From NCBI RefSeq assembly GCF_014197855.1, contig NZ_JACIGJ010000023.1:1-47442 (forward strand): a stretch of 47,442 nucleotides of DNA, read 5' to 3'. A program made the translations under genes and the position numbers. How positions within the stretch are numbered: the stretch's first letter is position 1; each line of letters opens with the position of its first letter. Of this stretch, positions 2,249-40,393 are shown piece by piece. Under the pieces are notes generated by a model that did not search any database, had not been told where the DNA came from, and was given only the letters and a program-made list of their open reading frames with translations. Source of the DNA: Roseospira marina. GTDB lineage: Bacteria; Pseudomonadota; Alphaproteobacteria; Rhodospirillales; Rhodospirillaceae.

Positions 2249-2320
2249 GACGGACCGGAGAAGGACCCTCCCTCTCCGCTCGAATCCGTCACAAAACCGA
2301 AGACGTCCTTTGACTCTGAC
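2249..2320 (-). promoter_or_regulatory. Structured 5' leader, copy 1 (parB-like gene)
   Basis: Read on the minus strand, an outer stem GACGGA (2285-2290) pairs with TCCGTC (2249-2254). Nested inside it, CGGAGA (2273-2278) pairs with TCTCCG (2256-2261). The inner loop is purine-rich (GGGAGGGT). Upstream lies a conserved box, GTC-AAAGGACGTCTTCGG-TTTTGT. The outer stem ends 26 bases before the ATG, and an AAGGAGAC ribosome site follows it. The inner TCTCC strand is complementary to the GGAGA of that ribosome site, so the two could compete. Confidence 0.75.
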
Positions 2321-2699
2321 TGGCACCGCCGGGCGCGATGCCGGGGATGTTCCTCACCTCCGCCCCCGCCATCGCCAAGGCGTGGGCAATCTCCTCCAGC
2401 GGCGCGTAGGACAGCGCATGGCGCGGCGGCGGACAGGGTGGCCGCCCGACGGCGGGCATGGGACCGCGCACCACCAGATCGAACAGCACGTCGAAGGGCA
2501 TGGCGCGGCTATCGATCACCGGCAGGCCCGCCGCAAGGCAGGCGGCCTTGATCGGTTCCACGTCATAGCCGGACAGGGTTGCGCCCGCGCCGAAATACAG
2601 CGTGAAACCGCCATGCCCGATGGACAAATGCCCGCCCGGCGTGGCGAGCGCGCCCGTGATAACCTCGGCGGTATGGGTGGAAATGGACTCGTGCGTCAT
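2289..2699 (-). CDS. Unknown 136-residue element protein
   Basis: I do not recognise the family. The protein is small and soluble with no signal peptide or membrane span. It has a Gly-rich N-terminal half (GGHLSIGHGGFTLYFGAGAT), then LPVIDSRAMPFDVLFDLVVRGP, a proline-rich stretch (PPCPPPRHA) and a helical C-terminus. The start is supported by GGAGACC directly upstream of the ATG. It lies upstream of parB-like on the same strand. Its last ten codons and its TGA fall inside the conserved box and first stem of the parB leader (2289-2320). That suggests the leader was placed against this gene's end, or that the two are transcribed together. Its own leader carries hairpin copy 2. Confidence 0.6.
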   Translation of the reverse strand: MTHESISTHTAEVITGALATPGGHLSIGHGGFTLYFGAGATLSGYDVEPIKAACLAAGLPVIDSRAMPFDVLFDLVVRGPMPAVGRPPCPPPRHALSYAPLEEIAHALAMAGAEVRNIPGIAPGGASQSQRTSSVL

Positions 2700-2713
2700 G
2701 GTCAGGTCTCCGT

Positions 2714-2782
2714 GACGGACCGACGGAAGCCCTCTCCCGTCTCTGAAAACCCGTCACGAAGACCCGAACGGCCTCTGACTCT
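2714..2782 (-). promoter_or_regulatory. Structured 5' leader, copy 2 (136-residue gene)
   Basis: On the minus strand the outer stem is GACGG (2751-2755) with CCGTC (2714-2718), and the inner stem is GACGG (2737-2741) with CCGTC (2722-2726). The inner stem bases differ completely from the GGAGA/TCTCC stems of copies 1, 3 and 4, yet pairing is preserved. The outer stem ends 14 bases before the ATG and abuts the GGAGACC ribosome site. The upstream box here is CAGAGTCAGAGG-CCG-TTCGGGTCTTCGT, a diverged version of that in copy 1. Confidence 0.7.
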
Positions 2783-3034
2783 GGGGCGTTGGATGTATAA
2801 TAAGTTGTTATTTGCTCTTTAGTATATTATACAGGGAGTTGTTTTCGCTTGGTGCCCATCTCGGTCGCTCAGACATTAATCAACTGTGTCAATATACGGA
2901 CGAATGTTACTAGTAGACTCAGGGGCAATGATAGCTTGGATCGTATTTCGCGCGGACTCTCTTCGACCTTGATCAAAGAAAATAAACGTAGATTTTTTAC
3001 TTAATATGCCGATGGGCATCAAGGGAGAAGTGGA

Positions 3035-3916
3035 GTGTCTACCTATTTTACGGATCGTGAATACGGAACACGGCCCCAAACAATCGAAATCATCGATGAG
3101 CGTTTGTGGGCCGGCCTCTCCAGCTTGATCCAGACGGGAATTGGCAACGGCTCATTTGGCTTGCGCTTTCCGGAACAGTGCCCAGACGGGAACGGTCCAT
3201 GCGGATGTGACGAGGCGGCCTTCCGCCAGGTGCTAGGCGCCGAGGTGCCTTGGATCGAATGGCCGCTTTCTCCGAACGTTGTGCCTGACACGCCAGTGAT
3301 CCTCGATCTACTCGAGTTTTGCGCCAGCGCCGTGGGTGAGCCGATTCAGGGCGCTTATCATTCCTACTATCGTCACCATCACTTGAGTTGGGATCGAGAC
3401 GCTGGCCTTGCGCGATTTGTGGCCGACGTGAACCTCCTGTTTCGCCGCAACGCTGTCGCCTATGAACTCACAGCGACCGGACAGGCCCGTCGCCTTCTTC
3501 CGCAGGCGATAGCCAGTACGATCGGCTGGGCCTTGTTTCACACCGATGACGCGGAAACCGACAGGCTTCTTGAAGCCGCACGACAGCGAATTCTCTCGCC
3601 AAAGCCCGATGATCGCCGCGATGCGTTGGAAAAGCTGTGGGATGCGTTTGAGCGGCTGAAGACGTTGGAACCGGGGGCCGACAAGCGCGCGCAGGCCGAT
3701 GCACTGCTCGACCGTGTCGCCGCGCCGGGTTCGGGTTTTCGCCAAGCGCTCGGGCGCGAAGCCGCCGAACTGACCAAAGTTGGGAATAACTTTCGCATTC
3801 GTCACTCTGAGACGACGCAGGAAGTGCTGACTTCTCTCGATCAGGTCGATTACCTTTTTACCCGCATGTTCGCATTCGTGCGCGTGATTCTGAGAGGAAC
3901 CAACCGTGGCGGATGA
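3035..3916 (+). CDS. Putative abortive-infection partner protein
   Basis: A 293-residue protein with a GTG start and an excellent AAGGGAG site (3021-3027) seven bases upstream. I do not recognise the N-terminal domain (residues ~1-190). The C-terminal end (about 245-285) has RIRHSE followed by a hydrophobic helix (VDYLFTRMFAFVRVIL). This resembles the C-termini of abortive-infection / DUF4145-HEPN-like proteins, but the canonical R-x4-6-H catalytic signature is not clear. It overlaps the next gene by 11 bases, so the two are translationally coupled. It is on the plus strand amid minus-strand backbone genes and is preceded by an AT-rich promoter region (2790-3020). A defence role is inferred from the partner gene. 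Confidence 0.5.
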   Translation: MSTYFTDREYGTRPQTIEIIDERLWAGLSSLIQTGIGNGSFGLRFPEQCPDGNGPCGCDEAAFRQVLGAEVPWIEWPLSPNVVPDTPVILDLLEFCASAVGEPIQGAYHSYYRHHHLSWDRDAGLARFVADVNLLFRRNAVAYELTATGQARRLLPQAIASTIGWALFHTDDAETDRLLEAARQRILSPKPDDRRDALEKLWDAFERLKTLEPGADKRAQADALLDRVAAPGSGFRQALGREAAELTKVGNNFRIRHSETTQEVLTSLDQVDYLFTRMFAFVRVILRGTNRGG

Positions 3917-5228
3917 CCTCTATGGGCGCGTCGCCGGCCTCCTTCAGGGGATGACCCACGACCAACTCAGCGAGGAGCCGCAGCGGGTCGCGGGCTTGGT
4001 TGTGCCATCCGAGAAGGGCTTGTCAAGGCGGCAGCGTATCGAACAAGCGCTGGCGAACCTGACACAGAAGCAATTGGCGCGACTCGCGCTGAAGTTTGGG
4101 GCGGATCGTGGCGACATCCCCCTTGATGAAGCGGGCCGCAAGGTACTCGAAGCAAACGACCCGCCTATATCTCACATTACACGACGAGACCTCGCACGTG
4201 TCTTCGGAGACGATCTCGCCGGCGAGCGCGGCACGGTGGAAATCGTCGGACGCTATTTTGTCCTTTCCACACCGATTGAAGACCTCCTCGGAAGCAGTGG
4301 ACAAAGCCTGCGTGACCAAATCGACCGGCATATGGATCAGAATCCGGGCGACTGGTCGGTGGAACATTTATTCAGTGAAATCGGTGCCTTTGATTGCTCC
4401 AACGCCAGATTTGGCGCATTGCTCGAAGAAGCCGTTCATCCGCTTTCCCGGTCAGGTGATGATCAAGCGGGGATAGTCGTCGCCCTGAACAAGATTCTCG
4501 CGCGCGATGGATACGAGCTCGTGCAGGAAAGTGAGCTCTCCGGTCATCCGATTTTCGGCTTCCGTCCTGTCGTGCGTGGTGTCGGTGGTCGACCCAAGAA
4601 CTTGATCTTTGCCTCGCGAGGACCGAAGTCTGAGATCGGCTTCGCCGATGCGATCAACAACGACATCGTCATTCTGTCTGGCGAAGAGAGTTGCTTGGTC
4701 TACGACCGGCCGATCGGCGCGAGCGGCCTTCTATGGTCGGAACTCGTCACTTGGTGGGGCGAGATTACGCCGGGGGCGGATGCCGCAAAACTCGGAGCCC
4801 GCCTCCAAGAATCCTTAGCCTCGGACGCAGAGCGCAAGCTTTTCGCGACCTACTTTAAGGCCTATCGGTCCACTCTCGGCGAGGCGCTGCCTGCGCTCCT
4901 ACCCCAAGTCTACCTTCACTATGATCCCGCCGTCGTGAAAACCCTGCGCCGCCGGCTTCCGCTACCGCGTCAGCGCATGGACTTCCTGATACTGCTTCCG
5001 AGCCGTCAGCGCATCGTGATCGAGGTTGACGGCAAGCATCACTTTTCGGAAAACGACCTTCCGTCATTGAAGGTCTATGCCAACATGGTGTCGGCCGACC
5101 GCGAACTGCGCCTTGCCGGATACGAGGTCTATCGGTTCGGCGCAAATGAACTGGTCGGTGACAGCGCCGAGGCGAGGATCACAGATTTCTTCGACAAACT
5201 ATTTCATTTGTATCGCATACGGCAGTGA
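3906..5228 (+). CDS. AbiJ-NTD3-like protein with PD-(D/E)XK nuclease end
   Basis: A 440-residue protein with a GTG start inside the end of the previous gene. The middle (residues ~150-215: EIGAFDCSNARFGALLEEAV, then HPLSRSGDDQ and GYELV) matches the pattern of AbiJ N-terminal-domain-3 proteins. The C-terminal ~95 residues look like a Vsr/DUF559-type PD-(D/E)XK nuclease: RMDFLIL supplies the Asp near residue 358, and IVIEVDGKHHF supplies the E-x-DGK-x-H core near residue 372. Proteins of this layout are usually phage-defence or abortive-infection effectors that cleave nucleic acid. The fold assignments rest on motif pattern and memory. With the upstream gene it forms a two-gene cargo unit. Confidence 0.6.
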   Translation: MADDLYGRVAGLLQGMTHDQLSEEPQRVAGLVVPSEKGLSRRQRIEQALANLTQKQLARLALKFGADRGDIPLDEAGRKVLEANDPPISHITRRDLARVFGDDLAGERGTVEIVGRYFVLSTPIEDLLGSSGQSLRDQIDRHMDQNPGDWSVEHLFSEIGAFDCSNARFGALLEEAVHPLSRSGDDQAGIVVALNKILARDGYELVQESELSGHPIFGFRPVVRGVGGRPKNLIFASRGPKSEIGFADAINNDIVILSGEESCLVYDRPIGASGLLWSELVTWWGEITPGADAAKLGARLQESLASDAERKLFATYFKAYRSTLGEALPALLPQVYLHYDPAVVKTLRRRLPLPRQRMDFLILLPSRQRIVIEVDGKHHFSENDLPSLKVYANMVSADRELRLAGYEVYRFGANELVGDSAEARITDFFDKLFHLYRIRQ

Positions 5229-5370
5229 ACTTGCTTGCTGACGTACCAAGCGCCGAGGGCCACAACGGCTCGAGAGTTGATAGGCAGCTTCCCGCCCATA
5301 CAGTTGTAGCATATTGAACCGGCCCGGAACGACCCCCGCCAGCTCTTGAGCGAGGACCGTGTCAGATCGC

Positions 5371-5595
5371 TCAGGCCCCGACGCCATCATGATCGGTGAG
5401 GACCATGTCGGGCGTGAGGCTGACGAAGAGCGGCTGGATGTTGACGGTGTTGCCGTCCTCATCCGGCGTGATGGCGACGATGGCCGAGGCCGGTTGGCCG
5501 TTTACGAAGCAGGAGAACAGGGCGAGATTGTCGTAATCGCCGCTGGTCAGCGCCTCGAACGCGTCTTGGTGGGCGGGGGTGATGTTGGTGCTCAT
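5371..5595 (-). CDS. Small conserved element protein (74 aa)
   Basis: A small acidic protein (SCFVNGQPASAIVAITPDE, then LFVSLTPDMVLTDHDG). Similar small proteins lie beside DUF2958 genes in alphaproteobacterial plasmids and ICEs, and their function is unknown. The start is set by GGAGGCGACC immediately before ATG at 5595. It lies 11 bases downstream of the DUF2958 gene, so it is probably the second cistron of a two-gene operon controlled by the structured leader at 5990-6059. Confidence 0.7.
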   Translation of the reverse strand: MSTNITPAHQDAFEALTSGDYDNLALFSCFVNGQPASAIVAITPDEDGNTVNIQPLFVSLTPDMVLTDHDGVGA

Positions 5596-5606
5596 GGTCG
5601 CCTCCC

Positions 5607-5963
5607 TCAAGCTGCGATGTGGCCGGCGGTGGCCGCGTCGGCGGCATAGCGGCTGATGGGCTTGGTGGCCTTGAAGTGCCGGTCGACCTCGACAGGGAGA
5701 CCGAGCCGCCCGCGTACACCGGCCAGCTCCGCGAGCGACACATAGCCGAGTTCCGGGAAGCCGAGCCCCAGATCGCACAGGCCGAACGCGATGTCGGGCT
5801 CGTCCGGGTCGATCTCGGTCAGGAGCCAGGTGCAGCCTGCGTCCGGCGTGAACAGCTTCACGACGGGGTGGAAGTCGATCTCGTCTTCGGTGCCGCGCAC
5901 CGGATCCTGACGGCGGCCGTTGGCCAGCAAACGGTCGTAGATGGATTTCGGCAGAAAGGTCAT
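5607..5963 (-). CDS. DUF2958 domain protein
   Basis: A 118-residue protein made almost entirely of the DUF2958 domain: LPKSIYDRLLANGRRQD, then PVVKLFTPDAGCTWLLTEID, FGLCDLGLGFPELGYVSLAE and LPVEVDRHFKATKPISRY. The family is a marker of plasmid and ICE backbones in alphaproteobacteria, but its biochemical role is not established. The ATG has GAGGAGAC upstream, and the leader carries hairpin copy 3. The C-terminal residues AADAATAGHIAA look like a small extension. The 74-residue gene follows closely. Confidence 0.88.
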   Translation of the reverse strand: MTFLPKSIYDRLLANGRRQDPVRGTEDEIDFHPVVKLFTPDAGCTWLLTEIDPDEPDIAFGLCDLGLGFPELGYVSLAELAGVRGRLGLPVEVDRHFKATKPISRYAADAATAGHIAA

Positions 5964-5989
5964 GGGTCGTCTCCTCGTTTTGTTGAACC

Positions 5990-6059
5990 GACGGGGTGGA
6001 GAAGGCCCCTCCCTCTCCGTTCAAACCCGTCAACAAAACCGAAGACGTCCTCTTCCTCT
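5990..6059 (-). promoter_or_regulatory. Structured 5' leader, copy 3 (DUF2958 gene)
   Basis: On the minus strand the outer stem is GACGGG (6026-6031) with CCCGTC (5990-5995), and the inner stem is GGAGA (6014-6018) with TCTCC (5998-6002). The sixth outer pair is G-C here but A-T in copy 1, a compensatory change. The upstream box (AGAGGAAGAGGACGTCTTCGG then TTTTGT) is nearly identical to that of copy 4. There are 26 bases between the outer stem and the ATG. Confidence 0.75.
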
Positions 6060-6185
6060 ATGGTCGCGTGGTGGGCAGCGCGTCGATCATTTCAGGCAAT
6101 ACAAAAGGGGAAATGCTGGCCGACGTGCCGCCCGGTTCCGCCGATGCCGGAGCGGATACGCCGGACGAGAAGCGGTCCCGGGCGA

Positions 6186-6491
6186 TCAGGCGGAGATGTA
6201 GGGCTTGACGTCGATGGTGTCGGCGCGACCGCGCATGGTGAAGACATCGAACTGGACCTGCATCGGCAACAGAAGCTCCATCGAAACGCTGAAGGCCTTC
6301 TCGATGCGCAAGGCCATTTCGGGGGACAGGGCCGCCTTCTCGTTGACGAGATCGGACAGGGTCGCGCGACGCACGCCCAGGATTTTTGCGGCCCGGGACA
6401 CGGACAGACCCAGTTCGGCGAAGATTTCCTCCCGGATGAATTCGCCCGGATGGACGGGCTTCATGCCGATTTTTTCAATCCGCTCGCTCAT
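6186..6491 (-). CDS. higA: HigA-family antitoxin (orphan)
   Basis: A 101-residue protein of the HigA/VapI family. It has the diagnostic PVHPGEFIREEIFAELGLS start, then the HTH (VSRAAKILGVRRATLSDLVN) and the tail LRIEKAFSVSMELLLPMQ. HigA proteins bind operator DNA and neutralise HigB ribosome-dependent RNases. The gene lies 6 bases downstream of a complete toxin/antitoxin pair and has no toxin of its own nearby, so it is either a spare antitoxin or the remnant of a second locus. The C-terminus is somewhat divergent. Confidence 0.85.
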   Translation of the reverse strand: MSERIEKIGMKPVHPGEFIREEIFAELGLSVSRAAKILGVRRATLSDLVNEKAALSPEMALRIEKAFSVSMELLLPMQVQFDVFTMRGRADTIDVKPYISA

Positions 6492-6497
6492 GGGCCT

Positions 6498-6845
6498 TCA
6501 CGCACCGTTGGGGTGAGCGTGGCTGCCTGACGCATCCGAAAAGCCGTCCAGCGACACCGGCGGACGCCCCGGAAACTCCACAGTCAGTTTCAGCGAGCCG
6601 CCCATGGCCTCGACGTAGCTGCGCAGGGTGGAGAGCATCAGGTCGCTGCGCTTTTCGAGTTGGGCCACCGTGGCCTGGCGGATACCCAGCATCTCCGCCA
6701 TCTGTGCCTGCGTGAGGTCTTGGGCCTTGCGCAGTTCTTTCAGCGTCTGATAGGCGGCATGCAGACGGTCGGCCTCGGCCTCGATCCGCGCCCGGCGCTC
6801 CGGCGGCAATTCCGCCATCTTTTCCCTCAGTGTCTTGGCCATCAT
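6498..6845 (-). CDS. XRE-family antitoxin
   Basis: A 115-residue protein. The N-terminal helix (residues ~1-35) is followed by an XRE-type helix-turn-helix (AQDLTQAQMAEMLGIRQATVAQLEKRSD, about 40-68), then a beta segment (GGSLKLTVEFPG) typical of HigA2/RelB-type antitoxins. The start codon overlaps the toxin stop by 4 bases. The toxin-first order fits HigBA-type modules, which repress their own promoter. The inverted repeat at 7204-7243 is a plausible operator. Confidence 0.85.
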   Translation of the reverse strand: MMAKTLREKMAELPPERRARIEAEADRLHAAYQTLKELRKAQDLTQAQMAEMLGIRQATVAQLEKRSDLMLSTLRSYVEAMGGSLKLTVEFPGRPPVSLDGFSDASGSHAHPNGA

Positions 6846-7198
6846 CCTCCTCCTTTCCTGCGGCTCATGTGCCGCTCGAACCTCTCGTCGGCCTTGGCCA
6901 CGAGCGTTTTGTAGAACCGTTTCTGACTGCCGCCCGATTTGTCTCCGGCCGCCAGCAGGATGGCATTGCGTTCGGGATCAAAAGCGAAGGCCACGCGCCA
7001 GACGCCATCGGCCGCCGTGCACCGCAGTTCCTTCATGTTGGCGTGCCGCGACCCATTCAGGGTATCAACATACGGGCGGCCCAGATGCGGGCCTTCGCGC
7101 TCCAACACGGCAACGCGCGCGAGGATGGCGTCCTGGACATCCTCGGCAAACGCATCGAATTCGGGCTCGAAGGCCTCGTCAAACAGCACGTCCCACAT
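6842..7198 (-). CDS. HigB/RelE-like toxin (Gp49 family)
   Basis: A 118-residue basic protein. It fits the phage-derived Gp49-like / HigB family: an N-terminal helix pair (FEPEFDAFAEDVQDAILARV), then the strand-rich core LNGSRHANMKELRCTAADGVWR, VAFAFDPERNAILLAAGDKSG, and the C-terminal SQKRFYKTLVAKADERFERH. Toxins of this group cleave mRNA on the ribosome. It is the first gene of a toxin-antitoxin operon. It lies inside the element backbone, where such modules stabilise the element. Confidence 0.85.
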   Translation of the reverse strand: MWDVLFDEAFEPEFDAFAEDVQDAILARVAVLEREGPHLGRPYVDTLNGSRHANMKELRCTAADGVWRVAFAFDPERNAILLAAGDKSGGSQKRFYKTLVAKADERFERHMSRRKGGG

Positions 7199-7325: not shown

Positions 7326-8258
7326 TTATTCGGCGGCCTCGCTGATCTGTAGAATGGGATCCGCCGCGCCGGGCTGGCGGCCGTGCAGGTAATCGGCGGC
7401 GCGCTGGGCGTGGGCGGCGGCGGAGAAGATGGCCCGCTTGTCGGCCTTCAGGACGCCAAGCCAGTGGTCGATATAGGCGGCGTGATCCTCGCGGACGTGC
7501 AGCGTCAGGTCCAGATCGGCGCACAGGAACGCCGCCCCCAACTCGGCCACCAGTTCCTCGCGCGCATAGCCTTCGTCGCCGAAGGTCTTGCGCCCGAAAT
7601 CCCGGGCCAGGCGGTCGGGATGGCGAGTCGCGTGCGTTGCTTCATGCCCAAGGGTCGCATAAAAGCTGTCCGCGTCGCGGAAGGCCTCAATCGGCGGGAT
7701 TCGGATGCGGTCGAGCGCCACGTTGTAGCTGGCCTCGGTGCCGCCGGTGACGATCTGGACGCCGATATTGGCAAAGAACGCCTCGGCGTGGGCAATGCGC
7801 TCCGGCCCGTCGGCCCGGGGCTCGGGCTTGGTGTAGTAATGCGCGGGCAGGTCCTCGATCTGCTCGACGTTGAACACGCTGTACGCCTTCATGAAGGGGA
7901 TGTGCTGTTCGACGGTCTCGCCCGCGTCGGTCTCGTCCGTGCGGGTGATCGTGTTGGCGTAGACGACCGGCGAGCCCTTCTCGCCCTTGCGCACATGCGC
8001 GCCGAGCGCCAATGCCTGCCGGAAGGTCATCCACATGGGCGAAGCGAAGCCGTGTTCCATGGCGGCCGACCAGAGCATGAGGATGTTGATCCCCGCATAG
8101 GGCACGCCGTTGTGCCGGAGGGGCCGGTTGACCCGGCCGGCGGCGTGCTCGGCGCTCCAGGGCTTCTCCCACGGCCGAACGCCCTTTTCCAGTTCGGCGA
8201 TGATGCTGTCGGTGACCCGGGTGTAGATGTCCTGCCGAGGGGTGGTTTCGCGTGTCAT
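7326..8258 (-). CDS. ardC: ArdC-type antirestriction protein, zincin domain
   Basis: A 310-residue protein. The N-terminal ssDNA-binding ArdC/DUF1738 domain covers residues ~5-130 (YTRVTDSIIAELEKGVRPWE, then YAGINILMLW and FRQALALGAHVRKGEKG). The C-terminal zincin-like domain has GHEATHATRHPDR (HExxH-type zinc site) and REELVAELGAAFLC (third ligand). ArdC proteins carried by conjugative elements protect incoming single-stranded DNA from restriction. The start is ATG 8258 with AAAGGAGAC upstream. The leader carries hairpin copy 4 with a tandem duplication. The gene is complete, unlike its stub at 40190-40336. Confidence 0.9.
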   Translation of the reverse strand: MTRETTPRQDIYTRVTDSIIAELEKGVRPWEKPWSAEHAAGRVNRPLRHNGVPYAGINILMLWSAAMEHGFASPMWMTFRQALALGAHVRKGEKGSPVVYANTITRTDETDAGETVEQHIPFMKAYSVFNVEQIEDLPAHYYTKPEPRADGPERIAHAEAFFANIGVQIVTGGTEASYNVALDRIRIPPIEAFRDADSFYATLGHEATHATRHPDRLARDFGRKTFGDEGYAREELVAELGAAFLCADLDLTLHVREDHAAYIDHWLGVLKADKRAIFSAAAHAQRAADYLHGRQPGAADPILQISEAAE

Positions 8259-8285
8259 GGTCCGTCTCCTTTGGTTCGTGCGGTC

Positions 8286-8379
8286 GACGGGCCGGAGAAG
8301 GACCCTCCCTCTCCTCTTGAATCCGTCACGAAACCGAAGACTTGAATCCGTCACGAAACCGAAGACGTCCTCTTCCTCT
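8286..8379 (-). promoter_or_regulatory. Structured 5' leader, copy 4 (ardC), duplicated arm
   Basis: On the minus strand the outer stem is GACGG (8323-8327) with CCGTC (8286-8290, read in reverse), and the inner stem is GGAGA (8310-8314) with TCTCC (8294-8298). A 25-bp unit (8316-8340) is repeated exactly at 8341-8365. The 5' arm of the outer stem therefore exists twice, and two alternative outer stems are possible. The upstream box matches copy 3. There are 27 bases to the ATG. Confidence 0.75.
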
Positions 8380-25166: not shown

Positions 25167-25371
25167 CGAAGATATGTGGCAGAAAAATCGGCATCTTTCC
25201 GCATAAAACCAATGAGTTAAAACACAAAGGACATCACAAAAAAATGTCCCGAAGCTTAACGATTCTTGCAACAATACATATTGGGAAATGACTTAGATTC
25301 TCTTTTTGGTCGGCATCCGCAACGGTCCGGTCGGCCGATGGTCCCGAGGTCCCCAACCTGGCAGAGGCGTC

Positions 25372-28300
25372 ATGATGTCCAAGCGCAAGTCCTCGTTTCC
25401 CATCGTCGGAGTTGGCGCTTCGGCCGGTGGCATCGCCGCCCTGAACACCTTCTTCGACCACATGCCACCGGACAGCGGCATGGCCTTCGTGGTCATCCTG
25501 CACCTGGACCCATCCCAGGCCAGCCGCGTGGCCGAGATCATCGCCACGCACACGGCCATGCCCGTGGTCCAGGCCGAGCAGGGGATGCCGGTCCAACCGG
25601 ACCGGGTCTACGTCATCCCGCCGGCCACCCTGCTGGGTCTGGGGGACGAGGCCTTCCGGCTGGAAGAGATGGACCCGGAGCGGGTGCGACGCCGCCCGGT
25701 GGACCATTTCTTCACGGCGGTGGCCGCGCTGCGCGGCGAGCGCGCGGTGGGGGTCATCCTGTCCGGCACCGGCAGCAATGGATCGGAAGGGATCAGCCGC
25801 ATCAAGGAAGCGGGCGGCCTGGTCGCGGTCCAGGCCCCCGAGACGGCGGAATACACGGGCATGCCCCGGCACGCCGTCGCGACCGGACTGGCCGATATCG
25901 TCCTGCCGGTAGAGGCCCTGCCGGACACAATCCGCCACGTGATCCTGCACGACCAACCCCTCGCGCCGACACTGGAAGGACCGGGACCGGCCGCCTCATC
26001 CGCGCCGCTGGACGGAATTCTGGCCGCCGTGCGCGCCGAGACCGGGCACGAATTCCAATGCTACAAGGACGCCATGATCGGCCGACGCGTGCAGCGCCGC
26101 ATGGGCCTGAAGGGCCTGCGGACGATCACCGATTATCTGAACCTCGTCCGCAAGGATCCCCAGGAAGTTTCAGCCCTGGCGCGCGACCTGCTAATCAACG
26201 TGACCAGCTTTTTCCGCGACCCGGAGGCCTGGGAAGACCTCAGGGCGCAGGTCATAGCGCCGATGGTTGCGGAGCGAGGCCCGGACCGGCCGATCCGCGC
26301 CTGGGTCGCGGGCTGCGCCACGGGCGAGGAAGCCTACACTCTTGCCATGCTGCTGATGGAGGCGGCCGAGGCGGCGCGAACATCCGTGTCCGTGCGGGTC
26401 TTCGCCACGGATGCCAGCGAGGACGCCCTGGCTGTCGGCCGAAACGGGCTGTATCCGGCCAGCGTGATCGAAACCCTGTCCCCCGGCCGCATCGACCGGT
26501 TCTTTTCACGGGAGGACGATGCCTTCCGGGTCCGTCCGATCCTGCGCGATGCCATCACGTTCGCCCCCCAGAACCTGCTGCGGGATCCGCCGTTCTCCCG
26601 AATGGACGTGGTCGTCTGTCGCAACGTGCTCATCTACCTCAAACCGGACATTCAACGGAAGCTGCTGGCGCTGTTCCAGTTCGCGTTGCGACAGGGGGGT
26701 GCGTTGTTTCTGGGCTCCGTCGAGACCGCCCTGGGCCTGGAGGATGGATTCGAAACGATCTCGAAGCGGTGGCGCATTCATCGCCGGACCGGACCGGTCC
26801 TGCGTGACGGGATCGAGTTTCCGGTCGTTGGCGGCCCATTGGCCGGGGGCAACGGCGCGGGGTCGATGGCGCGCGTCACCCCGGCAGCGCCGCGCCGCGA
26901 TCACAGCGATCTGGCGCGGCGCGTCCTGCTGGACCGGTTCGCGCCGGCCGCGGTGCTGACGGACCCGGACCTTCGCATTCTGTCGGTGCACGGCGACACC
27001 ACGCCCTTCCTGCGCCATCCGGACGGCGAACACACGCGCGACCTGACGCGGCACCTGCGCGATGCCCTGCCCCACACGGTGCGCAATCTGGCACAAAGAG
27101 CCCTGGCGCAGCAGCGGACACAAAGCGGTCAGGTCGTGATGACCACCGGGCAGGACCTGCACCAGGCGGTGACGGTGACCGTGGCTCCGATCCTCAGCAG
27201 TCATGACGATACGCTTCTGTTGACCACCTTTGATCGAATTGGCTCGCGCGAGACCGTGCCGCTTTGGGGTCCCCACCCCGGGGCAGCCCAGCCCTCCGCA
27301 GCCGACCAAGCCGACACGCCCGCCGTGCCGGACCCGGATCTTCTGGCGGCACAGGAACAAGTGCGGCTGACCGTGCGCCAGCTTGAAGGCACGAACGAGG
27401 ACCTGAAAGCCTCGAACGAAGAAATCATGACGATGAACGAGGAGCTCCAGTCCACAAACGAGGAACTGGAAAGCTCCAAGGAGGAATTGCAGTCTCTCAA
27501 CGAGGAGCTGAATACGGTCAACACGCAGCTTCAGAACAAAGTTCAGGAGTTGGAGAGCAAGAGCAACGACCTCAACAACCTTCTCAACAGCACCGATACC
27601 CCGACGCTCTTCCTGGATCGGGCCATGACCGTGCGCTGGTTCACACCCAGGTTGCGGGAACTGGTCGACCTGACGCCCGGCGACATGGGGCGCCCCTTTG
27701 CAAGCTTCGCCCGCAAAGTCATGGACGAGACCTTCGAGGCGGACGCCCGCGCCGTTCTGTCCACGCTGAGTCCCAGCGAACGACAGGTGCCCGGCACCCA
27801 GGGCAATCAGTGGTTCCTCCGGCGCATTCTCCCGTACCGGACCGAGGATGATCGTATCGACGGCATCGTGGTGACCTTCATCGACATCACCGAACGACGC
27901 CTCTACGAGCAGAGGCTTCAGTCGGCCAAAGACTTCGCCGAAGCGATCGTCGCGACCGTGCGCTCGCCCTTGCTCATCCTCGACCCCGAACAAAGGGTCG
28001 TGTCTGCGAACCCGGCGTTTTATAGCCACTTTCGGATCGCGCCGGGCCTGGCCAACGGGCGCGTCCTGTCCGAACTGGGCAACGGAGCATGGAGCATCCC
28101 TGACCTTGATACTCTCATGGCGGCCGTTCTACCGGCAAACAGAGAGGTGGAAGGCTTCGAGGTCGAGCACGATTTTCCCGGCCTTGGGACCTGCACCATT
28201 CTCATCAACGCGATGCGGCTGGACAGCATGGACCTGATCCTGGTGTCCATCGAGGACGTCACCCAGGACCGCTGGGCCGAAGAGCAGGGCCGTGAGCACG

Positions 28301-30537
28301 AAGCCCGTCAGGCCCTGCGGATCGAGTTGTCCGACCGTTTGCGTGACCTTTCTGATCCGGTCCGTGCCCAGGCCGTCGGATGCGAGATTCTGGCCCGAGA
28401 CCTTGATGCCAACCAGGCCATCTATGCCGAGATCGACCCCGCGCGCGACGAAACCATCGTCGCGCAAGACTGGACGGATGGCACGATCCCCAGCATGGCG
28501 GGGTCCCATCGGCTCAGCGATTTCGGATCGACCGTCATGGCCGACCTTCAGAGCGGCAGGACGGTTACCGTCGGTGACGTTCATGCAGACCCGGGCATCG
28601 GGGCATCGGGCGTGCCCCGCGTTTTCGCGGCGCGTTCAATCGTGGCCTTTCTGATGGTGCCCCTTGTCAAGGGTGACAGGCTGGCCAGCGTGCTCAGTGT
28701 CCACGTATCCAGGCCGAGACACTGGAGCCCCGGCAACGTAGCCCTCGTGGAGGAGGTGGCGGCCCGGATCTGGTCCGAGGTCGAACGCGCACGGGCAGAA
28801 GAGGCGCTCCGGGACAAGGAAGAACGTCTACGGCTTGCGGTCGAGGCGAGCAGCGGTGGGGTGTTCGCGTACGATTCTATCCGCGTGGATCCCCCCTTCG
28901 TCAGTGATCGGTGCGCCGAGATTCTTGGTGTGTCCCGCACCGCACAGCCGGATCGGGATCACCTTCAGGCATGGCTGCTGAACCGGATTCATCCCAACGA
29001 CACCGCCGAGGTGAAGGGTCGGGCTGCCGATCTCATCGACGGCGGGGCGGACAGATTGGACCTGGATTTCCGCGTTCGGCTGGCGAACGAAACGTGGCGC
29101 TGGGTCCGGGGCGTTGCACAGGCTGCGCGGCAGTCCGAGGAAGGCCCGGCCCGGCACATCACAGGCATTCTGTTCGATATCAATGCGCGCAAAACGATCG
29201 AGGAACGGCTCGCCCATCTGGCGTTGCATGACCCCCTAACAGGATTACCGAACCGGTCGCTGTTTTCCGACCGGCTCGAGACGGCCCTGACGCAGGCGCA
29301 ACGCCAAGGCAGCCGTGTCGCCTTGGCTCTGCTCGATATCGACAAGTTCAAGGCAATCAACGACACGCTCGGTCATGCCGCCGGCGATCATATTCTCCGC
29401 CAACTGGGCAGTCAGGGGCCGGCCGCCCTGCGGCCGCTTGACACGTTCGCGCGCCTGGGCGGCGACGAGTTCGCCGTGATCCTGCCGGACCTCGAGGCCG
29501 GCACGGGCGCCAGTCGCGTGCTTGACCGCTTCCTGGCCGGCCTTGATCTCCACGTGGGAGAAGGTGACCGGAAGGTCTCGGCGTCGATCAGCATGGGCGT
29601 GGCGATTTTTCCGGAGGACGGTGAAAACCAGGAGGCGCTATTCAGTCATGCCGACCTTGCGCTTTATCGGGCAAAGGGCGTTGAGGGCAACCAGATGCGG
29701 TTTTTCGAGCCGGGCCTCGGCGCCGAGGTCAAACGCCGGCGCACACTTGCGGACGGGCTGAAGCAGGCCCTTGAGGCCGACCAGTTCGAGGTGTACTACC
29801 AGCCGCTTCTTGACCTTCATCGCGGCAGCATCACCGGAACCGAGGCGCTGGTGCGCTGGAATCATCCCACGGATGGACTGGTCATGCCGGACGATTTCAT
29901 CCCGATAGCCGAAGAAACGGGGCAGATCGTTCCGCTGGGCGGGCGCGTTCTGGAGGATGCATTGCGGCAGACCCGTTTCTGGCGCAACGAAGGATTGGAC
30001 CTCAAGATTGCCGTTAACCTCTCGGCCAAACAACTAAGAAACAAAAAAATTCTTGAGGATATTGATGCTTGCCTCAGTACGCATGGCCTCGAACCCGAGG
30101 ACTTGGAGATCGAGCTGACGGAAAGTACTATTTTTCGCTATGATAGCCAAGAGACAGCGCGCTTTTTGGAAGGGGCTAGAAGCCGTCACTTCGCGCTGGT
30201 CATCGACGATTTCGGAACCGGTTTCAGTGCGTTCAGTTATCTGCACTACCTCCCCATCACCAAGATCAAGCTGGACCGGTCGTTCATTGCCACGATCAGC
30301 GATGCGGACCACGAGGCCCTGGTCGGCGGACTGGTGGACCTGGGCCATCGGCTTAGCTGCCGGGTCACGGGCGAGGGGGTCGAGACCGCCGAACAGCTGC
30401 AGTTCCTCCTCCGCGTTGGCTGCGACGAGGCCCAAGGGTTTCTGATTGCGCCTCCGACGCCGGCGGGGGAGGTGTCGGCTGTCGTGCGAGAGATCAACCG
30501 GCGCGGCGTGTCGGCGTTTCTGTCGGACGCGACGTGA
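25372..30537 (+). CDS. CheB-CheR-PAS-GAF-GGDEF-EAL hybrid signalling protein
   Basis: 1721 residues. The CheB methylesterase domain (~1-190) has GASAGG (Ser) and HLDPSQ (His), but the usual GTGSDG Asp is Asn here (GTGSNGSEG). The CheR methyltransferase domain (~205-475) has the SAM loop AGCATGEEAYTLA and the FATDAS motif. A linker leads to a long coiled coil (~659-743, repeated NEELQS units), then PAS (~745-850), PAS (~850-960), GAF (~990-1130) and PAS (~1145-1275). GGDEF (~1280-1445) has an intact GGDEF and an RPLD inhibitory-site motif five residues before it. EAL (~1460-1715) has TEALVRW, ELTES, DDFGTG and EGVE. It could link methylation-type sensing to making and breaking c-di-GMP. ATG ATG start after AGAGG. 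Confidence 0.93.
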   Translation: MMSKRKSSFPIVGVGASAGGIAALNTFFDHMPPDSGMAFVVILHLDPSQASRVAEIIATHTAMPVVQAEQGMPVQPDRVYVIPPATLLGLGDEAFRLEEMDPERVRRRPVDHFFTAVAALRGERAVGVILSGTGSNGSEGISRIKEAGGLVAVQAPETAEYTGMPRHAVATGLADIVLPVEALPDTIRHVILHDQPLAPTLEGPGPAASSAPLDGILAAVRAETGHEFQCYKDAMIGRRVQRRMGLKGLRTITDYLNLVRKDPQEVSALARDLLINVTSFFRDPEAWEDLRAQVIAPMVAERGPDRPIRAWVAGCATGEEAYTLAMLLMEAAEAARTSVSVRVFATDASEDALAVGRNGLYPASVIETLSPGRIDRFFSREDDAFRVRPILRDAITFAPQNLLRDPPFSRMDVVVCRNVLIYLKPDIQRKLLALFQFALRQGGALFLGSVETALGLEDGFETISKRWRIHRRTGPVLRDGIEFPVVGGPLAGGNGAGSMARVTPAAPRRDHSDLARRVLLDRFAPAAVLTDPDLRILSVHGDTTPFLRHPDGEHTRDLTRHLRDALPHTVRNLAQRALAQQRTQSGQVVMTTGQDLHQAVTVTVAPILSSHDDTLLLTTFDRIGSRETVPLWGPHPGAAQPSAADQADTPAVPDPDLLAAQEQVRLTVRQLEGTNEDLKASNEEIMTMNEELQSTNEELESSKEELQSLNEELNTVNTQLQNKVQELESKSNDLNNLLNSTDTPTLFLDRAMTVRWFTPRLRELVDLTPGDMGRPFASFARKVMDETFEADARAVLSTLSPSERQVPGTQGNQWFLRRILPYRTEDDRIDGIVVTFIDITERRLYEQRLQSAKDFAEAIVATVRSPLLILDPEQRVVSANPAFYSHFRIAPGLANGRVLSELGNGAWSIPDLDTLMAAVLPANREVEGFEVEHDFPGLGTCTILINAMRLDSMDLILVSIEDVTQDRWAEEQGREHEARQALRIELSDRLRDLSDPVRAQAVGCEILARDLDANQAIYAEIDPARDETIVAQDWTDGTIPSMAGSHRLSDFGSTVMADLQSGRTVTVGDVHADPGIGASGVPRVFAARSIVAFLMVPLVKGDRLASVLSVHVSRPRHWSPGNVALVEEVAARIWSEVERARAEEALRDKEERLRLAVEASSGGVFAYDSIRVDPPFVSDRCAEILGVSRTAQPDRDHLQAWLLNRIHPNDTAEVKGRAADLIDGGADRLDLDFRVRLANETWRWVRGVAQAARQSEEGPARHITGILFDINARKTIEERLAHLALHDPLTGLPNRSLFSDRLETALTQAQRQGSRVALALLDIDKFKAINDTLGHAAGDHILRQLGSQGPAALRPLDTFARLGGDEFAVILPDLEAGTGASRVLDRFLAGLDLHVGEGDRKVSASISMGVAIFPEDGENQEALFSHADLALYRAKGVEGNQMRFFEPGLGAEVKRRRTLADGLKQALEADQFEVYYQPLLDLHRGSITGTEALVRWNHPTDGLVMPDDFIPIAEETGQIVPLGGRVLEDALRQTRFWRNEGLDLKIAVNLSAKQLRNKKILEDIDACLSTHGLEPEDLEIELTESTIFRYDSQETARFLEGARSRHFALVIDDFGTGFSAFSYLHYLPITKIKLDRSFIATISDADHEALVGGLVDLGHRLSCRVTGEGVETAEQLQFLLRVGCDEAQGFLIAPPTPAGEVSAVVREINRRGVSAFLSDAT

Positions 30538-35731: not shown

Positions 35732-35739
35732 GACTCGCG

Positions 35740-37261: not shown

Positions 37262-37884
37262 CGCGAAACCTCCACCTGGATGCGTTGGGCACCGGGCCTT
37301 TGCGGGCCACCGCGCCAAACGGCGCCGGCGCCCGGATTCAGCCAATCGGCGTCCCTCACTCGGATCGGATAGCCACACCAAAGTGTGGCGGGGTGTCTGT
37401 CGTTCTTCTGGGAATGGGGCGGACGCGCCGGACGACTGGGGTCCCGGCACCGTGCCGCTAGAGAAGATTCACGTGAATCTTTTCTAAATCAAACAGTTAG
37501 GGCGGACTCACGCGTCGCAATTGCCCTGCGGAGCGGGTCAATTGCGACGCGATCCGCCCTCGGCGTTTGCTACGCTGAACGGAGCTCGCCACCACACGTC
37601 CCTCATCGGGGGCGCGCGGGATCTCTCGAAAGGCTGTTCGCAGGGCCTCCCCCACGCCCACCGCAGGTCATGGGTAGGGCGTGGTGCCCTCGGGCGGGAC
37701 AAACCGTGGGTCCACGATCATCCTGAAAAGAGTGGGATCCGACGTCACGGGAACAGGCGTCACGGGCAGGACAGACCGACGGTCCTCGTCTTGCTGTCCC
37801 CACCGCATAATCGGGCCATGACCGGGCCATGACCGCACGCGCGGGGCGGATCGCGTTTCGCTCAAGGCGACCAAACCCACGCGG
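37262..37884. other. Gene-free stretch with palindromes and short repeats
   Basis: 623 bases with no supported gene; the ORFs present lack ribosome sites and family resemblance. It holds the palindrome cluster at 37445-37559 and, at 37812-37833, a tandem CGGGCCATGAC-type repeat. The stretch 37600-37800 has several short direct and inverted GC motifs (GTCACGGG twice) and may be an old insertion remnant. Confidence 0.6.
37445..37559. repeat. Cluster of three perfect palindromes
   Basis: The three are: CGGCAC/GTGCCG (37445-37457); the 18-bp self-complementary AAGATTCACGTGAATCTT (37464-37481); and a large hairpin with arms GGGCGGA/TCCGCCC (37500-37506, 37553-37559) plus CGCGTCGCAATTG/CAATTGCGACGCG (37511-37523, 37539-37551). 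They lie ~190 bases upstream of the fusion-regulator start. They could be protein-binding sites or stacked intergenic repeat units. Confidence 0.7.
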
Positions 37885-38217
37885 TTACTTTATGACCAGA
37901 TCGTTACGGACCTGCCGGACACCGGTCACGTCGGCGGCAACAGCGCCGGCGCGCTGCCTGGATGCGGCGGAGTCCACGAATCCGCTCAGTTGCACGACGC
38001 CTTTGTAGGTTTCGACATCGATCTTGAAGGCCGTCAGGCCCTGGTCGCCGAGAATGGCGGTGCGCACCGTGCTGCTGATGACCGTGTCGTCCAGGTACTC
38101 ACCCGTGCTTTCGCTGGTCGGGGTCGAGGTGCAGGCGGCCATCGACCCGACGGTCAGCCCGGCAAGCACGAGCAGGGCGGGCAGAAGGGCGCGATGGATG
38201 AAGCGGGGGCTCGTCAC
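37885..38217 (-). CDS. BON-domain lipoprotein
   Basis: A 110-residue protein with a GTG start at 38217 and GAAGGGA upstream. The signal peptide LLPALLVLAGLTVGSMAAC ends in a lipobox Cys (~residue 29). The BON domain fills residues ~42-110 (ISSTVRTAILGDQGLTAFKI, then VQLSGFVDSAASRQRAGAVA), with the terminal VRNDLVIK. BON (OsmY-type) proteins bind phospholipid or other envelope components and rise under osmotic stress. It lies downstream of DUF3309 on the same strand. Confidence 0.88.
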   Translation of the reverse strand: MTSPRFIHRALLPALLVLAGLTVGSMAACTSTPTSESTGEYLDDTVISSTVRTAILGDQGLTAFKIDVETYKGVVQLSGFVDSAASRQRAGAVAADVTGVRQVRNDLVIK

Positions 38218-38318
38218 GATGGGATCCCTTCGGCAGTGCCGCGCGGGGCGCGGGGGGGATGATTCGGCGGCCTGAACATCGGACCGAAGCGTGTTCCCTC
38301 CCGGCACGGCATGAGCGG

Positions 38319-38483
38319 TCAGATGCGGCCAAGCACCATCAGAACGATCAAGACGATCAGAACCGTGCCGAGGACACCGACCCCGACATGACCGAAGCCA
38401 TAGCCATACCCCCCGAAGCGTCCGCTGAATCCGCCAAGCAGAAAAACGACAAGAAGGATGATGAGGATCAGGCTGAGCGACAT
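38319..38483 (-). CDS. DUF3309 small membrane protein
   Basis: A 54-residue protein, ATG 38483 with CAGGAGAA upstream. Two hydrophobic segments (LSLILIILLVVFLLGGF and GVGVLGTVLIVLIVLMVLG) flank a Gly/Tyr-rich turn (GRFGGYGYGFGH), ending in LGRI. This is the DUF3309 pattern, a tiny inner-membrane protein common in alpha- and betaproteobacterial stress loci. Its function is unknown. Confidence 0.8.
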   Translation of the reverse strand: MSLSLILIILLVVFLLGGFSGRFGGYGYGFGHVGVGVLGTVLIVLIVLMVLGRI

Positions 38484-38677
38484 CGCGGTTCTCCTGGACG
38501 TCAGGGTGCCACCGGGGTTCCGAATGGCACTGAGTGTTGGCCGTGTCGCGCGGTGTGCCGAAGGGACGGCATCGCCGGGCTTCGGCGACCGGTCCCGATG
38601 GGGCACCCGATGGGGCAATTGCCGTCGATGGATACCCCACGGCCGTCGATCGTGATATCGACGCTACTCTGGCGTTC

Positions 38678-38755
38678 CTAGTAATAGAGGTACCCGGTCG
38701 CGGCGGCGGTTACGGTTAGCGCCACGATGGCGACAAGAAGAGAAGTCCAACTCAT
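38678..38755 (-). CDS. Possible 25-residue membrane peptide
   Basis: MSWTSLLVAIVALTVTAAAT followed by GYLYY and a TAG stop. The sequence is a single hydrophobic helix with a tyrosine-rich end, typical of small membrane proteins. GAGG lies about 9 bases before the ATG. Between DUF3309 and CsbD genes such peptides are plausible, but the length gives no statistical support. Confidence 0.4.
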   Translation of the reverse strand: MSWTSLLVAIVALTVTAAATGYLYY

Positions 38756-38842
38756 GAGCCCGTGCCTCGCCAAATCTCTGACCCTTACGGACAGCGCCGA
38801 CGGCACCATGCAGACCGTGCTTCGCCGTTGCGGCCACGGCCG

Positions 38843-39016
38843 TCAAGCGTCGCGGATGGTATCCTTGACCCCGCCGACGGCATTCTGGACCTTGCCCTCG
38901 ATCTTGTCGGCCTCGCCGTCCGATTCGAGCTTTTTGTCGCCGATCCCCTTGCCGACTGCGGCCTTCACCTTGCCTTTGATCACTTTCGCGGCGCCGATCA
39001 CACGGTCCTTGTCCAT
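38843..39016 (-). CDS. CsbD-family stress protein
   Basis: A 57-residue protein, ATG 39016 after AAAGGAGAACG. MDKDRVIGAAKVIKGKVKAA, then VGKGIGDKKLE, GEADKIEGKVQNAVGGVKD: the repeated Gly-Lys-Val amphipathic pattern is the CsbD hallmark. CsbD proteins are small and natively flexible, and are induced by general or osmotic stress; their mechanism is unknown. Confidence 0.9.
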   Translation of the reverse strand: MDKDRVIGAAKVIKGKVKAAVGKGIGDKKLESDGEADKIEGKVQNAVGGVKDTIRDA

Positions 39017-39113
39017 GACGTTCTCCTTTCTGCTCTGCGGCGATCCGCCGGAGACGTGTCTGGCGGGCAGGTCTCACCTGAACAGGTTTCGACCGTGTCC
39101 GCACTGACGCAGA

Positions 39114-39386
39114 TTAGCCTGTGGTAGAAAGCCGCCACGGCCCTCTTTGGGCGCCGCGCGGAGGGAAGGCGGGCCGCCGGGCGGGATTGACCCTGTTCAC
39201 TGATGATGGCCTGCGGGTACCGACCCGGGCCTGTTCCTCGCGGATCTGATCGCAGGAATAATCGGCGTACTGGTTGGGCGAGACATAGGCGGCGGCGATG
39301 TTCTCGCTGCTGCTGGCGCGGCCGGCCAGCGCCAGCGCGGTCGACAGGGTGGCAACGGACGCGGCGGAGACGAAGCGGTTCGACAT
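39114..39386 (-). pseudogene. Truncated lipoprotein without lipobox cysteine
   Basis: The first ~55 residues (MSNRFVSAASVATLSTALAL, then SENIAAAYVSPNQYADYSCD, QIREEQARV) match a common alphaproteobacterial lipoprotein family in which LAGC precedes SSS. Here the Cys codon is CGC (Arg, residue 23, bases 39318-39320), one change from TGC. After QARVGTR the sequence becomes an unrelated Arg/Pro tail and stops at 90 residues, whereas family members continue for another ~60 or more. Loss of both features points to a decayed gene. Confidence 0.65.
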
Positions 39387-39613
39387 GGAGGTGTGTCCTT
39401 CCCTTGGCTGCTCATCGAAGACCGGGATCGACCGGCGGGAGCCAGCAATCCCAGGCCTCACCATCGCATCAAGGGGTGCCACGTCCGGGCGCATGCCCGC
39501 CAAGGGTGACGGACCTTGGTGTGCCGGCAGGACGGCATCGCCAGAGGCCGGGTCAACAATGACTACGGAAGGCCGGGCGGGTCCTTGACCCCACCAGCCG
39601 GCCTTTCCCTCGC

Positions 39614-39943
39614 TCACCTCGGCGCGTTCCGACTCCAAACCAGGTTGGCGGTTTCGCCACCGCCGTCCGGGAACAGGGCGGCGGTGATGGGTCTGGGCAA
39701 ACCCGGATCGTCAAGGCGAACGCGCAGGTAGTCGCGCGGGGGCTCGGCTTTGGAGCGCGCGGCCCAGGCATCGCCGATGCGGTGGCCGGCGATCATGACG
39801 CGGAAGGCCGGCGCCCGCTCGGTCTCCCGGCTGTCGTTGGGAACGAAGCGGACCCCCGCGTCCAGGGTCAGGGTGCGGATGGTGCCGATCCAGCCGCCGT
39901 CGCGCGACGGCGAGAAGGTCCCGATAACGCTGATGACGCTTAT
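39614..39943 (-). CDS. DUF736 protein, start codon changed to ATA
   Basis: 109 codons encode a complete DUF736 domain: IGTFSPSRDGGWIGTIRTLT, then VRFVPNDSRETERAPAFRVM, DYLRVRLDDPGLPRPITAAL, ANLVWSR. DUF736 is an ICE/plasmid backbone marker of unknown function. No ATG, GTG or TTG is available at the expected N-terminus. The codon in start position is ATA (39941-39943), overlapping the TAA stop of the upstream fragment as ATAA. A single G-to-A from the usual ATGA would explain both. Either AUA initiates poorly or the gene is silent. Confidence 0.7.
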   Translation of the reverse strand: MSVISVIGTFSPSRDGGWIGTIRTLTLDAGVRFVPNDSRETERAPAFRVMIAGHRIGDAWAARSKAEPPRDYLRVRLDDPGLPRPITAALFPDGGGETANLVWSRNAPR

Positions 39944-40189
39944 GACTTGGTTTCCTGGCTGGTGGGTTCGGGACCGTCGGTGCTTCCCGCCCCCGCCGGT
40001 TTCCGCTGGCGGCGGCGCGGTGCGGCCGGATCGTCGCCCTCGCCCAGCCCATCCTTGCGAGCGCGGTTGAAAGCGCGGTCGCCGTCCAGGAAGGCGCGCA
40101 CCATGAAGGGGATCAGGTCGGCCACGCTTTCCGTCTCGCCGTAGGTGGCTTCGTAAAGGGCCGCGTTATGCTGACTCTTCGGACCTGTC
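39940..40189 (-). pseudogene. 3' remnant of an unidentified element gene
   Basis: An open frame (NAALYEATYGETESVADLIP, then FMVRAFLDGDRAFNRARKDG and a charged Pro/Lys tail) runs to TAA at 39940. The frame extends upstream only through sequence that belongs, in another frame, to the ardC stub. It therefore looks like the 3' end of a backbone gene joined to the 5' end of ardC by a deletion. Its family is not recognised. Confidence 0.4.
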
Positions 40190-40336
40190 TCATTGCCAGG
40201 CGGCGCCGAGGGCTGCACGATCCTTCCGGGCTCGCACGCAGACGTCCGGGTCAAGCTCGGCGATGATGCGGTCGGTGATCTCCGAATACAGGTTGGCGCG
40301 GTCGCCGTTGGACCGCCGGGCGGGTGCGCGGGACAT
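40190..40336 (-). pseudogene. ardC 5' stub
   Basis: 48 codons beginning MSRAPARRSNGDRANLYSEI then TDRIIAEL, which aligns with the N-terminus of ArdC proteins (compare IYTRVTDSIIAEL at 8220). It then ends within ~20 codons at TGA 40190. It has a normal GGGGAGAC ribosome site and the same structured leader as the intact ardC (copy 5). The remaining ~260 residues are missing, consistent with an internal deletion. Confidence 0.7.
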
Positions 40337-40349
40337 GGCGTGTCTCCCC

Positions 40350-40393
40350 GACGGGCCGGCGGAAGGCCACTCCCTCCGCCATCCAAACCCGTC
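40350..40393 (-). promoter_or_regulatory. Structured 5' leader, copy 5 (ardC stub)
   Basis: On the minus strand the outer stem is GACGGG (40388-40393) with CCCGTC (40350-40355), and the inner stem is GGCGGA (40375-40380) with TCCGCC (40358-40363). The inner stem differs at several positions from copies 1, 3 and 4, but the changes are paired. The upstream AAGAGGACGTCTTCGG box is not recognisable here. There are 13 bases to the ATG. Confidence 0.7.

Follow-up and report, generated by a model that had tools for sequence, protein, structure and literature searches.

A candidate Shine-Dalgarno-masking RNA leader in front of mobile-element genes of Alphaproteobacteria

Five leader copies in one contig

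Contig NZ_JACIGJ010000023.1 of Roseospira marina, analysed here over its full 47,442 nucleotides (hereafter the window; one entire contig of the assembly, with a G+C content of 64.6%), carries five copies of a conserved leader, each placed directly upstream of an open reading frame (ORF). An original prediction, made from the sequence alone, had put all five on the minus strand and each before a start codon, and reading the sequence confirmed this throughout. We distinguish three helices: P0, formed by the 5' arm with the Shine-Dalgarno (SD) region; P1, GACGGG/CCCGTC; and P2, the apical stem. P1 and P2 together are called the core. The leaders and the genes behind them are as follows.

2223-2317, minus strand: copy 1 leader, with an AGAG-type box (2308-2317), core (2248-2291), long-type P0, SD GGAG (2231-2234) and start codon at 2222
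906-2222, minus strand: ParB-like gene behind copy 1 (Pfam ParB_N, E 1.2e-8)
2700-2782, minus strand: copy 2 leader, with a AGAGTCAGAG box (2773-2782), core (2713-2756), a continuous P0/P1 helix across the SD (2708-2711) and start codon at 2699
2289-2699, minus strand: 136-aa ORF behind copy 2, without a Pfam match; its family lies behind 7 collected copies, copy 2 included
5964-6059, minus strand: copy 3 leader, with a AGAGGAAGAG box (6050-6059), core (5989-6032), long-type P0 and start codon at 5963
5607-5963, minus strand: DUF2958 gene behind copy 3 (Pfam E 2.3e-38)
8259-8379, minus strand: copy 4 leader, with a AGAGGAAGAG box (8370-8379), duplicated 5' arm (8317-8366), core (8285-8328) and start codon at 8258
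7326-8258, minus strand: ArdC anti-restriction gene behind copy 4 (Pfam ArdcN, E 9.8e-45; MPTase-PolyVal, E 6.3e-49)
40337-40421, minus strand: copy 5 leader, with a GGAGGCGGAG box (40412-40421), core (40349-40394), P0 and start codon at 40336
40190-40336, minus strand: behind copy 5, a 48-codon remnant similar to the N-terminal part of ArdC, sharing its stop with an ORF at 40190-41323

The inner stems described in the original prediction are all present, and its sixth outer pair reads as claimed, A-T in copy 1 and G-C in copies 3 and 5; the same position is G-T in copy 2 and a non-pairing A-C in copy 4. The two stems stand, but the structure is larger than was proposed, with the 5' arm upstream of GACGG also pairing with the SD stretch to give P0, which is an almost continuous helix in copy 2 and is longer, with interruptions, in copies 1, 3 and 4. 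The extra length given for copy 4 is real but comes from a tandem repeat of the 5' arm, two units of 25 bp, either of which could serve as the P0/P1 partner; the full and the shortened leader have different predicted folds. The ParB-like, DUF2958 and ArdC genes were correctly named, the gene called unknown is the 136-aa ORF behind copy 2, and copy 5 precedes the ArdC-like remnant. The copy 5 leader looks intact though its gene is a remnant, a DUF2274 stretch (in 39940-40317) then lying in another frame, and a relative (L022) has the same leader before a 317-aa ORF.

The generic two-stem shape occurs by chance 378 and 353 times on the two strands of the window, so that the shape alone is no evidence, and the case depends on shared sequence and covariation. 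When a covariance model built from the five copies was run against the 4.6 Mb genome, it recovered all five with E values of 2.5e-11 to 3.1e-7, together with a sixth copy on another contig (C6:223311-223352, E 0.0011), the next match appearing only at E 0.77. Relative to shuffles, the folding z scores of copies 1 to 5 were -5.98, -4.21, -2.77, -1.65 (-1.09 for copy 4 with its duplication) and -4.66, copy 1 having a minimum free energy (MFE) of -48.7 kcal/mol.

Distribution and paired changes

Of 98 genomes scanned with the five-copy model, 8 carry the element, its own among them. With a second model, made from 33 matches, the carriers numbered 29 among 317 genomes of the order, 25 among 385 of the class and 27 in a phylum sample of 398 (the own genome being in each), which amounts to 73 different carriers over the three tables. 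All 27 carriers in the phylum sample belong to the same class or closer, the number of the 398 genomes lying outside the class not being given. A DNA pattern for P1 and part of P0 matched at least 119 stretches in named genomes; among the 119 matches listed, 112 are alphaproteobacterial by record title and 7 are not assignable, taxonomy being judged from those titles. Named plasmid carriers include pCHQ1 of Sphingobium indicum UT26S, pML2037 of Mesorhizobium loti NZP2037 and pColt5.8d of Rhizobium rhizogenes, and two viral contigs from IMG/VR, L276 and L277, which matched a slightly shorter pattern, hold 2 and 3 leader copies, respectively. A BLAST search with copy 3 against plasmids gave no match, and one with a canonical relative as the query returned 81 records. 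The covariance-model search of alphaproteobacterial genomes that the original prediction had proposed was therefore successful, with copies found upstream of element genes. Its suggestion that the leader might already be catalogued was not borne out: Rfam 15 gave no match at the gathering score for the window and the loci of seven relatives, and at E values up to 10, for the stretch with four of the five copies and for one relative, returned weak unrelated families only, none of them on the leader core.

Two collections were used for the tests below. The pattern set comprises 136 copies (2 from viral contigs) obtained with the DNA pattern, which fixes P1 and part of P0 and leaves P2 free; the model set comprises 159 copies from the covariance model (163 matches). 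They overlap in 6 copies, and their union holds 277 distinct copies, identity being judged on the core plus 25 nt on either side. The pattern set is the fairer test of covariation, since the alignment of the model set (150 rows, 129 of them distinct) had been fitted to the structure.

In the model alignment, 95.1% of the cells are standard pairs, compared with 82.2% after shuffling, and double changes occur at 14 of the 15 modelled pairs, with 257 double-change cells against 74.4 in shuffled and 23-47 in slid controls. The pattern set, with P2 free, gave the same signal: the arms of P2 pair with their own partners at -12.34 kcal/mol and with swapped partners at -9.64 kcal/mol (z = -13.6, 0/2000; far control, 0.2). 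The arm-swap signal persists within single gene families, with z scores of -7.2 for ParB leaders and -8.2 for ArdC leaders. On a tree of 66 ParB-like proteins, which like the ArdC tree is a quick one with contrasts taken on well supported branches, P2 pairs 2 and 4 underwent 12 and 11 purine/pyrimidine switches, respectively. Among independent contrasts, the partner followed in 6 of 7 cases at pair 2 and 6 of 6 at pair 4, never going the opposite way, and in 2 of 2 at pair 5. Compensatory change beyond relatedness is thus observed, with independent contrasts at two P2 pairs and not at a third, and the claim that paired changes mark a selected RNA structure holds in the larger alignment, within gene families and, partly independently, on the tree.

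P0 also covaries. Swapping its arms gave z scores of -8.1 in the model set and -3.4 in the pattern set, as well as -3.6 within DUF932-like leaders (controls, +2.0 and +0.6) and -4.8 within ParB leaders (one control at +2.7). In-register P0 pairs exceeded shuffles at k = 0, 2, 3, 6, 8 and 9 in the model set and at k = 6, 8 and 9 in the pattern set (k = 9 with 12/1000).

Placement, folded strand and competing explanations

The leader is tied to the start of translation. An ORF begins within 80 nt on the same strand for 133 of 136 copies in the pattern set and 149 of 159 in the model set; by a stricter rule the corresponding figures are 128/131 and 147/152, as against 6/134 and 13/154 on the opposite strand. 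The spacing from core to start codon is 12-14 nt in 130/136 and 126/159 copies, and 24-26 nt in 14 copies of the model set. Among the predicted folds of 273 distinct leaders, 231 have three or more of the four SD bases paired to the 5' arm and 264 contain P1, and the mean predicted probability that the SD is unpaired is 0.140, rising to 0.446 without the arm and 0.534 with the arm shuffled. For copy 1 the predicted value goes from 0.009 to 0.521 upon removal of the arm and for copy 2 from 0.001 to 0.246. The SD is, in the predicted fold, occluded by the leader, more weakly in copies 4 and 5 of the window.

A second constant feature is a purine word. An AGAGnnAGAG box (at least 9 of 10 positions, both n included), not noted in the original prediction, lies some 27 nt above the stem, its start falling at -26 to -28 in 266 of the 284 upstream regions compared, although neither the model nor the pattern search required it; only 4 of 284 shuffled regions reach 9 of 10 anywhere, and nothing from -33 to -75 is conserved to a similar degree. 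The box is mostly unpaired in prediction (mean, 0.56; above 0.5 in 187/291). AGAG recurs in the apical 13 nt of 250 of the 277 distinct copies (266/295 versus 46 in shuffles before shared rows were removed), and of 100 distinct P2 interiors in the pattern set 55 have AGAGG as their loop; the apical AGAG of window copies 1, 3 and 4 sits in the stem, not in the loop. The same word occurring three times suggests that one factor, protein or RNA, reads it. Two candidate partners were tried. As a ribosome standby site the box does no better than chance (-9.21 against the anti-SD tail, -9.10 for shuffled boxes), and no partner for AGAG was found in the first 200 nt of the gene, where CTCT occurs 133 times versus 166 in shuffles.

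Which strand folds can be read from the imperfect pairs. P2 of the pattern set contains 682 Watson-Crick, 127 G-U, 26 A-C and 9 other pairs, whereas shuffled interiors give G-U and A-C in a ratio of 2918:1182. The stem finder credits G-U and A-C equally and takes the best stem per sequence, so that it favours pairing in general but not G-U over A-C. The same best-stem choice underlies the tree contrasts. Compared with independent arms, the observed/expected ratios in P2 are 0.77 for G-U and 0.27 for A-C (0.80 and 0.28 in the model set), and those in P0 are 0.95 and 0.51. Tolerance of G-U together with avoidance of A-C indicates that the folded strand is the sense strand, that is, the mRNA.

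Judging from sequence comparison and predicted folds, we regard it as likely that the genes of a mobile-element regulon each carry the element as a cis-acting mRNA leader of ~85-120 nt, which masks their ribosome-binding sites and is recognised by a trans factor. Pairing of the 5' arm with the SD region in P0 would keep translation low by default, the unpaired purine words and the conserved P1/P2 stem would serve as the handle for the trans factor, a protein or a CUCU-bearing RNA, and this factor would either open P0 or hold it shut until removed. ArdC, ParB-like, DUF932-like and DUF2958 proteins, among others, would then be turned on together. The sequences show a selected RNA structure that folds in the mRNA sense and keeps a constant position ahead of unrelated element genes; the common control of mobile-element genes put forward in the original prediction is supported and probably acts after transcription.

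Several results weigh against this interpretation. The G-U/A-C contrast is small in P1 (0.59 versus 0.39). Removal of the arm hardly changes the predicted SD opening in copy 3 (0.005 with the arm, 0.002 without), copy 4 (0.103 and 0.201) or copy 5 (0.261 and 0.297), so that within the window the predictions show a clear arm dependence of masking only for copies 1 and 2. The MFE fold of copy 4 has P0 and P2 without P1, and with the duplication it lacks P0 too, the centroid retaining P0. Covariation is uneven: on the ParB tree the partner of P2 pair 3 followed in 2 of 6 contrasts, with no difference in ~4, and ArdC contrasts are few, those listed for pairs 6, 7 and 8 numbering 4, 4 and 3, with the partner following in about 2, 2 and 3 and practically never going the opposite way. 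For P0, the second control within ParB leaders reaches z = -1.9 (168/5000), ArdC leaders show no covariation (z = -0.7; controls, -1.3 and -1.2), the 13 long-type leaders give only 48/2000 in the swap test, and the in-register pairs k = 1, 4, 5 and 7 are not above shuffles, for which reason a purely in-register P0 helix was rejected and bulges are needed. No promoter was found upstream of the leader by canonical sigma70-like scoring of the 122 nt above the box. Finally, ArdC genes often lack the leader: a sample of 16 ArdC loci, including 9 from Alphaproteobacteria, contained no leader even at E 10 (at one of them, L292, the ArdC part belongs to a larger gene and the leader region was not covered). 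An argument for a host factor from the confinement of the leader to one class was dropped on account of these 16 loci.

Other explanations fare worse. It is unlikely that the element is a DNA palindrome, a protein site controlling transcription, for example one bound by the ParB-like product. ParB-like genes are indeed the commonest downstream neighbours (121 of the 277 distinct copies), and the AGAG repeats are constantly spaced; however, a double-stranded site would not distinguish G-U from A-C, P2 conserves pairing rather than sequence, and the SD belongs to the pairing. The sense-strand bias is likewise unexpected for a folded template strand, which bears on the quite improbable alternative of a single-stranded DNA promoter of the Frpo/ssi type, where a hairpin in the incoming strand mimics a double-stranded promoter and leads to early transcription of the leading region. 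Here the anti-restriction genes are of the right kind, the copies are strictly co-oriented, and Frpo elements are described as folded, single-strand promoters ahead of genes of this type (PMC11541004). Frpo carries promoter elements within the fold, and its folded strand would presumably be the template, which would favour A-C on the sense strand, the opposite of what is seen; the leader has no promoter-like conserved bases and nothing strong between -33 and -75, its upstream sigma70-like scores equal those of shuffles (canonical sigma70 only), and its position is fixed to the SD and start codon.

We give still less credence to control by a short upstream ORF that would end at the conserved TGA of TGACGG and act through attenuation or translational coupling. 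This TGA is present in 259 distinct leaders, the frame is open for at least 20 codons in 192 of them, and in the window the 136-aa ORF stops at precisely the TGA within the TGACGG of copy 1. Yet there is no conserved in-frame start, the commonest being a GTG at -24 (73/259) that lies inside the AGAG box, 34 of the 259 frames close within 7 codons, and another frame is about equally open (191, counted with duplicates still in the set). An RNA thermometer, in which warming melts P0 and frees the SD, is the hardest to credit: the arm facing the SD is U-rich and G-U pairs are frequent in P0, but the mean predicted SD opening changes little, from 0.135 to 0.166, between 15 and 50 degrees (n = 156), and the AGAG box, P2 and its loop are left unexplained. 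The single-stranded DNA promoter, the thermometer and the leader peptide are accordingly not supported.

The marked genes and a possible translational switch

Behind the 277 distinct copies, apart from the ParB-like genes, lie 88 ArdC and 29 DUF932-like genes (the latter label resting on a Pfam E value of 0.013, below the cut-off), a 185-aa family (8), the 136-aa family (6), DUF2958 (5) and unassigned ORFs (7); 13 copies have no ORF by the rule used, some owing to a contig end or a short reading frame. These are the families named in the original prediction plus others, and they have no common metabolic function, nor did a candidate ligand for a riboswitch emerge. Where a stretch holds two or more copies, these lie on one strand in all 53 cases of the model set and all 19 loci of the pattern set. 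Clustering of neighbours in 117 loci placed ParB-like proteins in 80, a large protein, perhaps the helicase seen in annotated plasmids, in 34 and DUF932-like proteins in 23; no obvious RNA-binding gene stood out among these clusters, which derive from crude ORF calling with antisense frames and were not domain-searched.

The surroundings of the window copies include a serine recombinase, an integrase, a HigBA-like pair and two AbiJ-domain genes, and the leader copies and these neighbours may form one element. The AbiJ genes (3035-5228, plus strand) are adjacent, carry N-terminal domains AbiJ_NTD4 and AbiJ_NTD3, lie between leader-bearing genes and are a candidate defence pair with 86% DNA identity to a Blastomonas plasmid. 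Between the ArdC and DUF2958 genes, 6498-7198 encodes a helix-turn-helix and Gp49-like pair, which we take to be a HigBA-type toxin-antitoxin arrangement. Farther along, a single 1743-aa ORF (25306-30537) joins CheB, CheR, PAS/GAF, GGDEF and EAL domains.

Leaders that pair the SD in a 5' hairpin are familiar from the ROSE and fourU thermometers and from ribosomal-protein leaders, and the predicted fold resembles them in this respect. The present leader differs in that one family precedes at least six unrelated mobile-element gene families and carries AGAG words and, as regards ROSE and fourU, in not being temperature-sensitive in prediction. The literature searched, of which coverage was partial, does not describe it. 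SD-masking leaders as a kind are known; what appears to be new is this leader family and its role as a shared tag across a mobile-element regulon.

The closest parallel is EGeRS1 of the pLS20 family in Bacillus, a repeated structured element before the ribosome-binding sites of five establishment operons, ardC included, which is reported to prevent read-through from expressing the gene (PMC8708921). Both elements are structured and stand directly before the ribosome-binding site. EGeRS1, compared here by description only, is about 400-750 bp long with several branches and belongs to Gram-positive hosts, and a short SD-pairing hairpin is not described in the text consulted (PMC8708921), whereas the leader spans ~85-120 nt and is alphaproteobacterial in 112 of the 119 record titles listed. 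ArdC of R388 is required in the recipient and not in the donor (PMC7213743). By analogy, R388 ArdC and pLS20 make an establishment role attractive without testing it, and a response to entry into a new cell, as first proposed, could be hypothesised from the gene identities and the pLS20 analogue, which are all that favours it. It is conceivable, though we rate it as doubtful, that an alphaproteobacterial establishment regulon has the leader as its shared translational switch: transcripts for anti-restriction and for maintenance would exist in a settled host but stay silent, and one AGAG-reading trans factor would release them together after entry or excision, so that zygotic induction would take place in translation and not in transcription.

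The survival of a mobile element in a new host depends in part on the timing with which its anti-restriction and establishment genes are expressed. Known routes to such timing are mainly transcriptional, through single-stranded promoters or repressor dilution. If a widespread RNA family that is absent from Rfam does mark a multi-gene regulon, it would provide a post-transcriptional route. The leader would also allow further establishment genes to be found, two families of unknown function having already come to light in this way, and would offer a defined target for identifying the trans factor.

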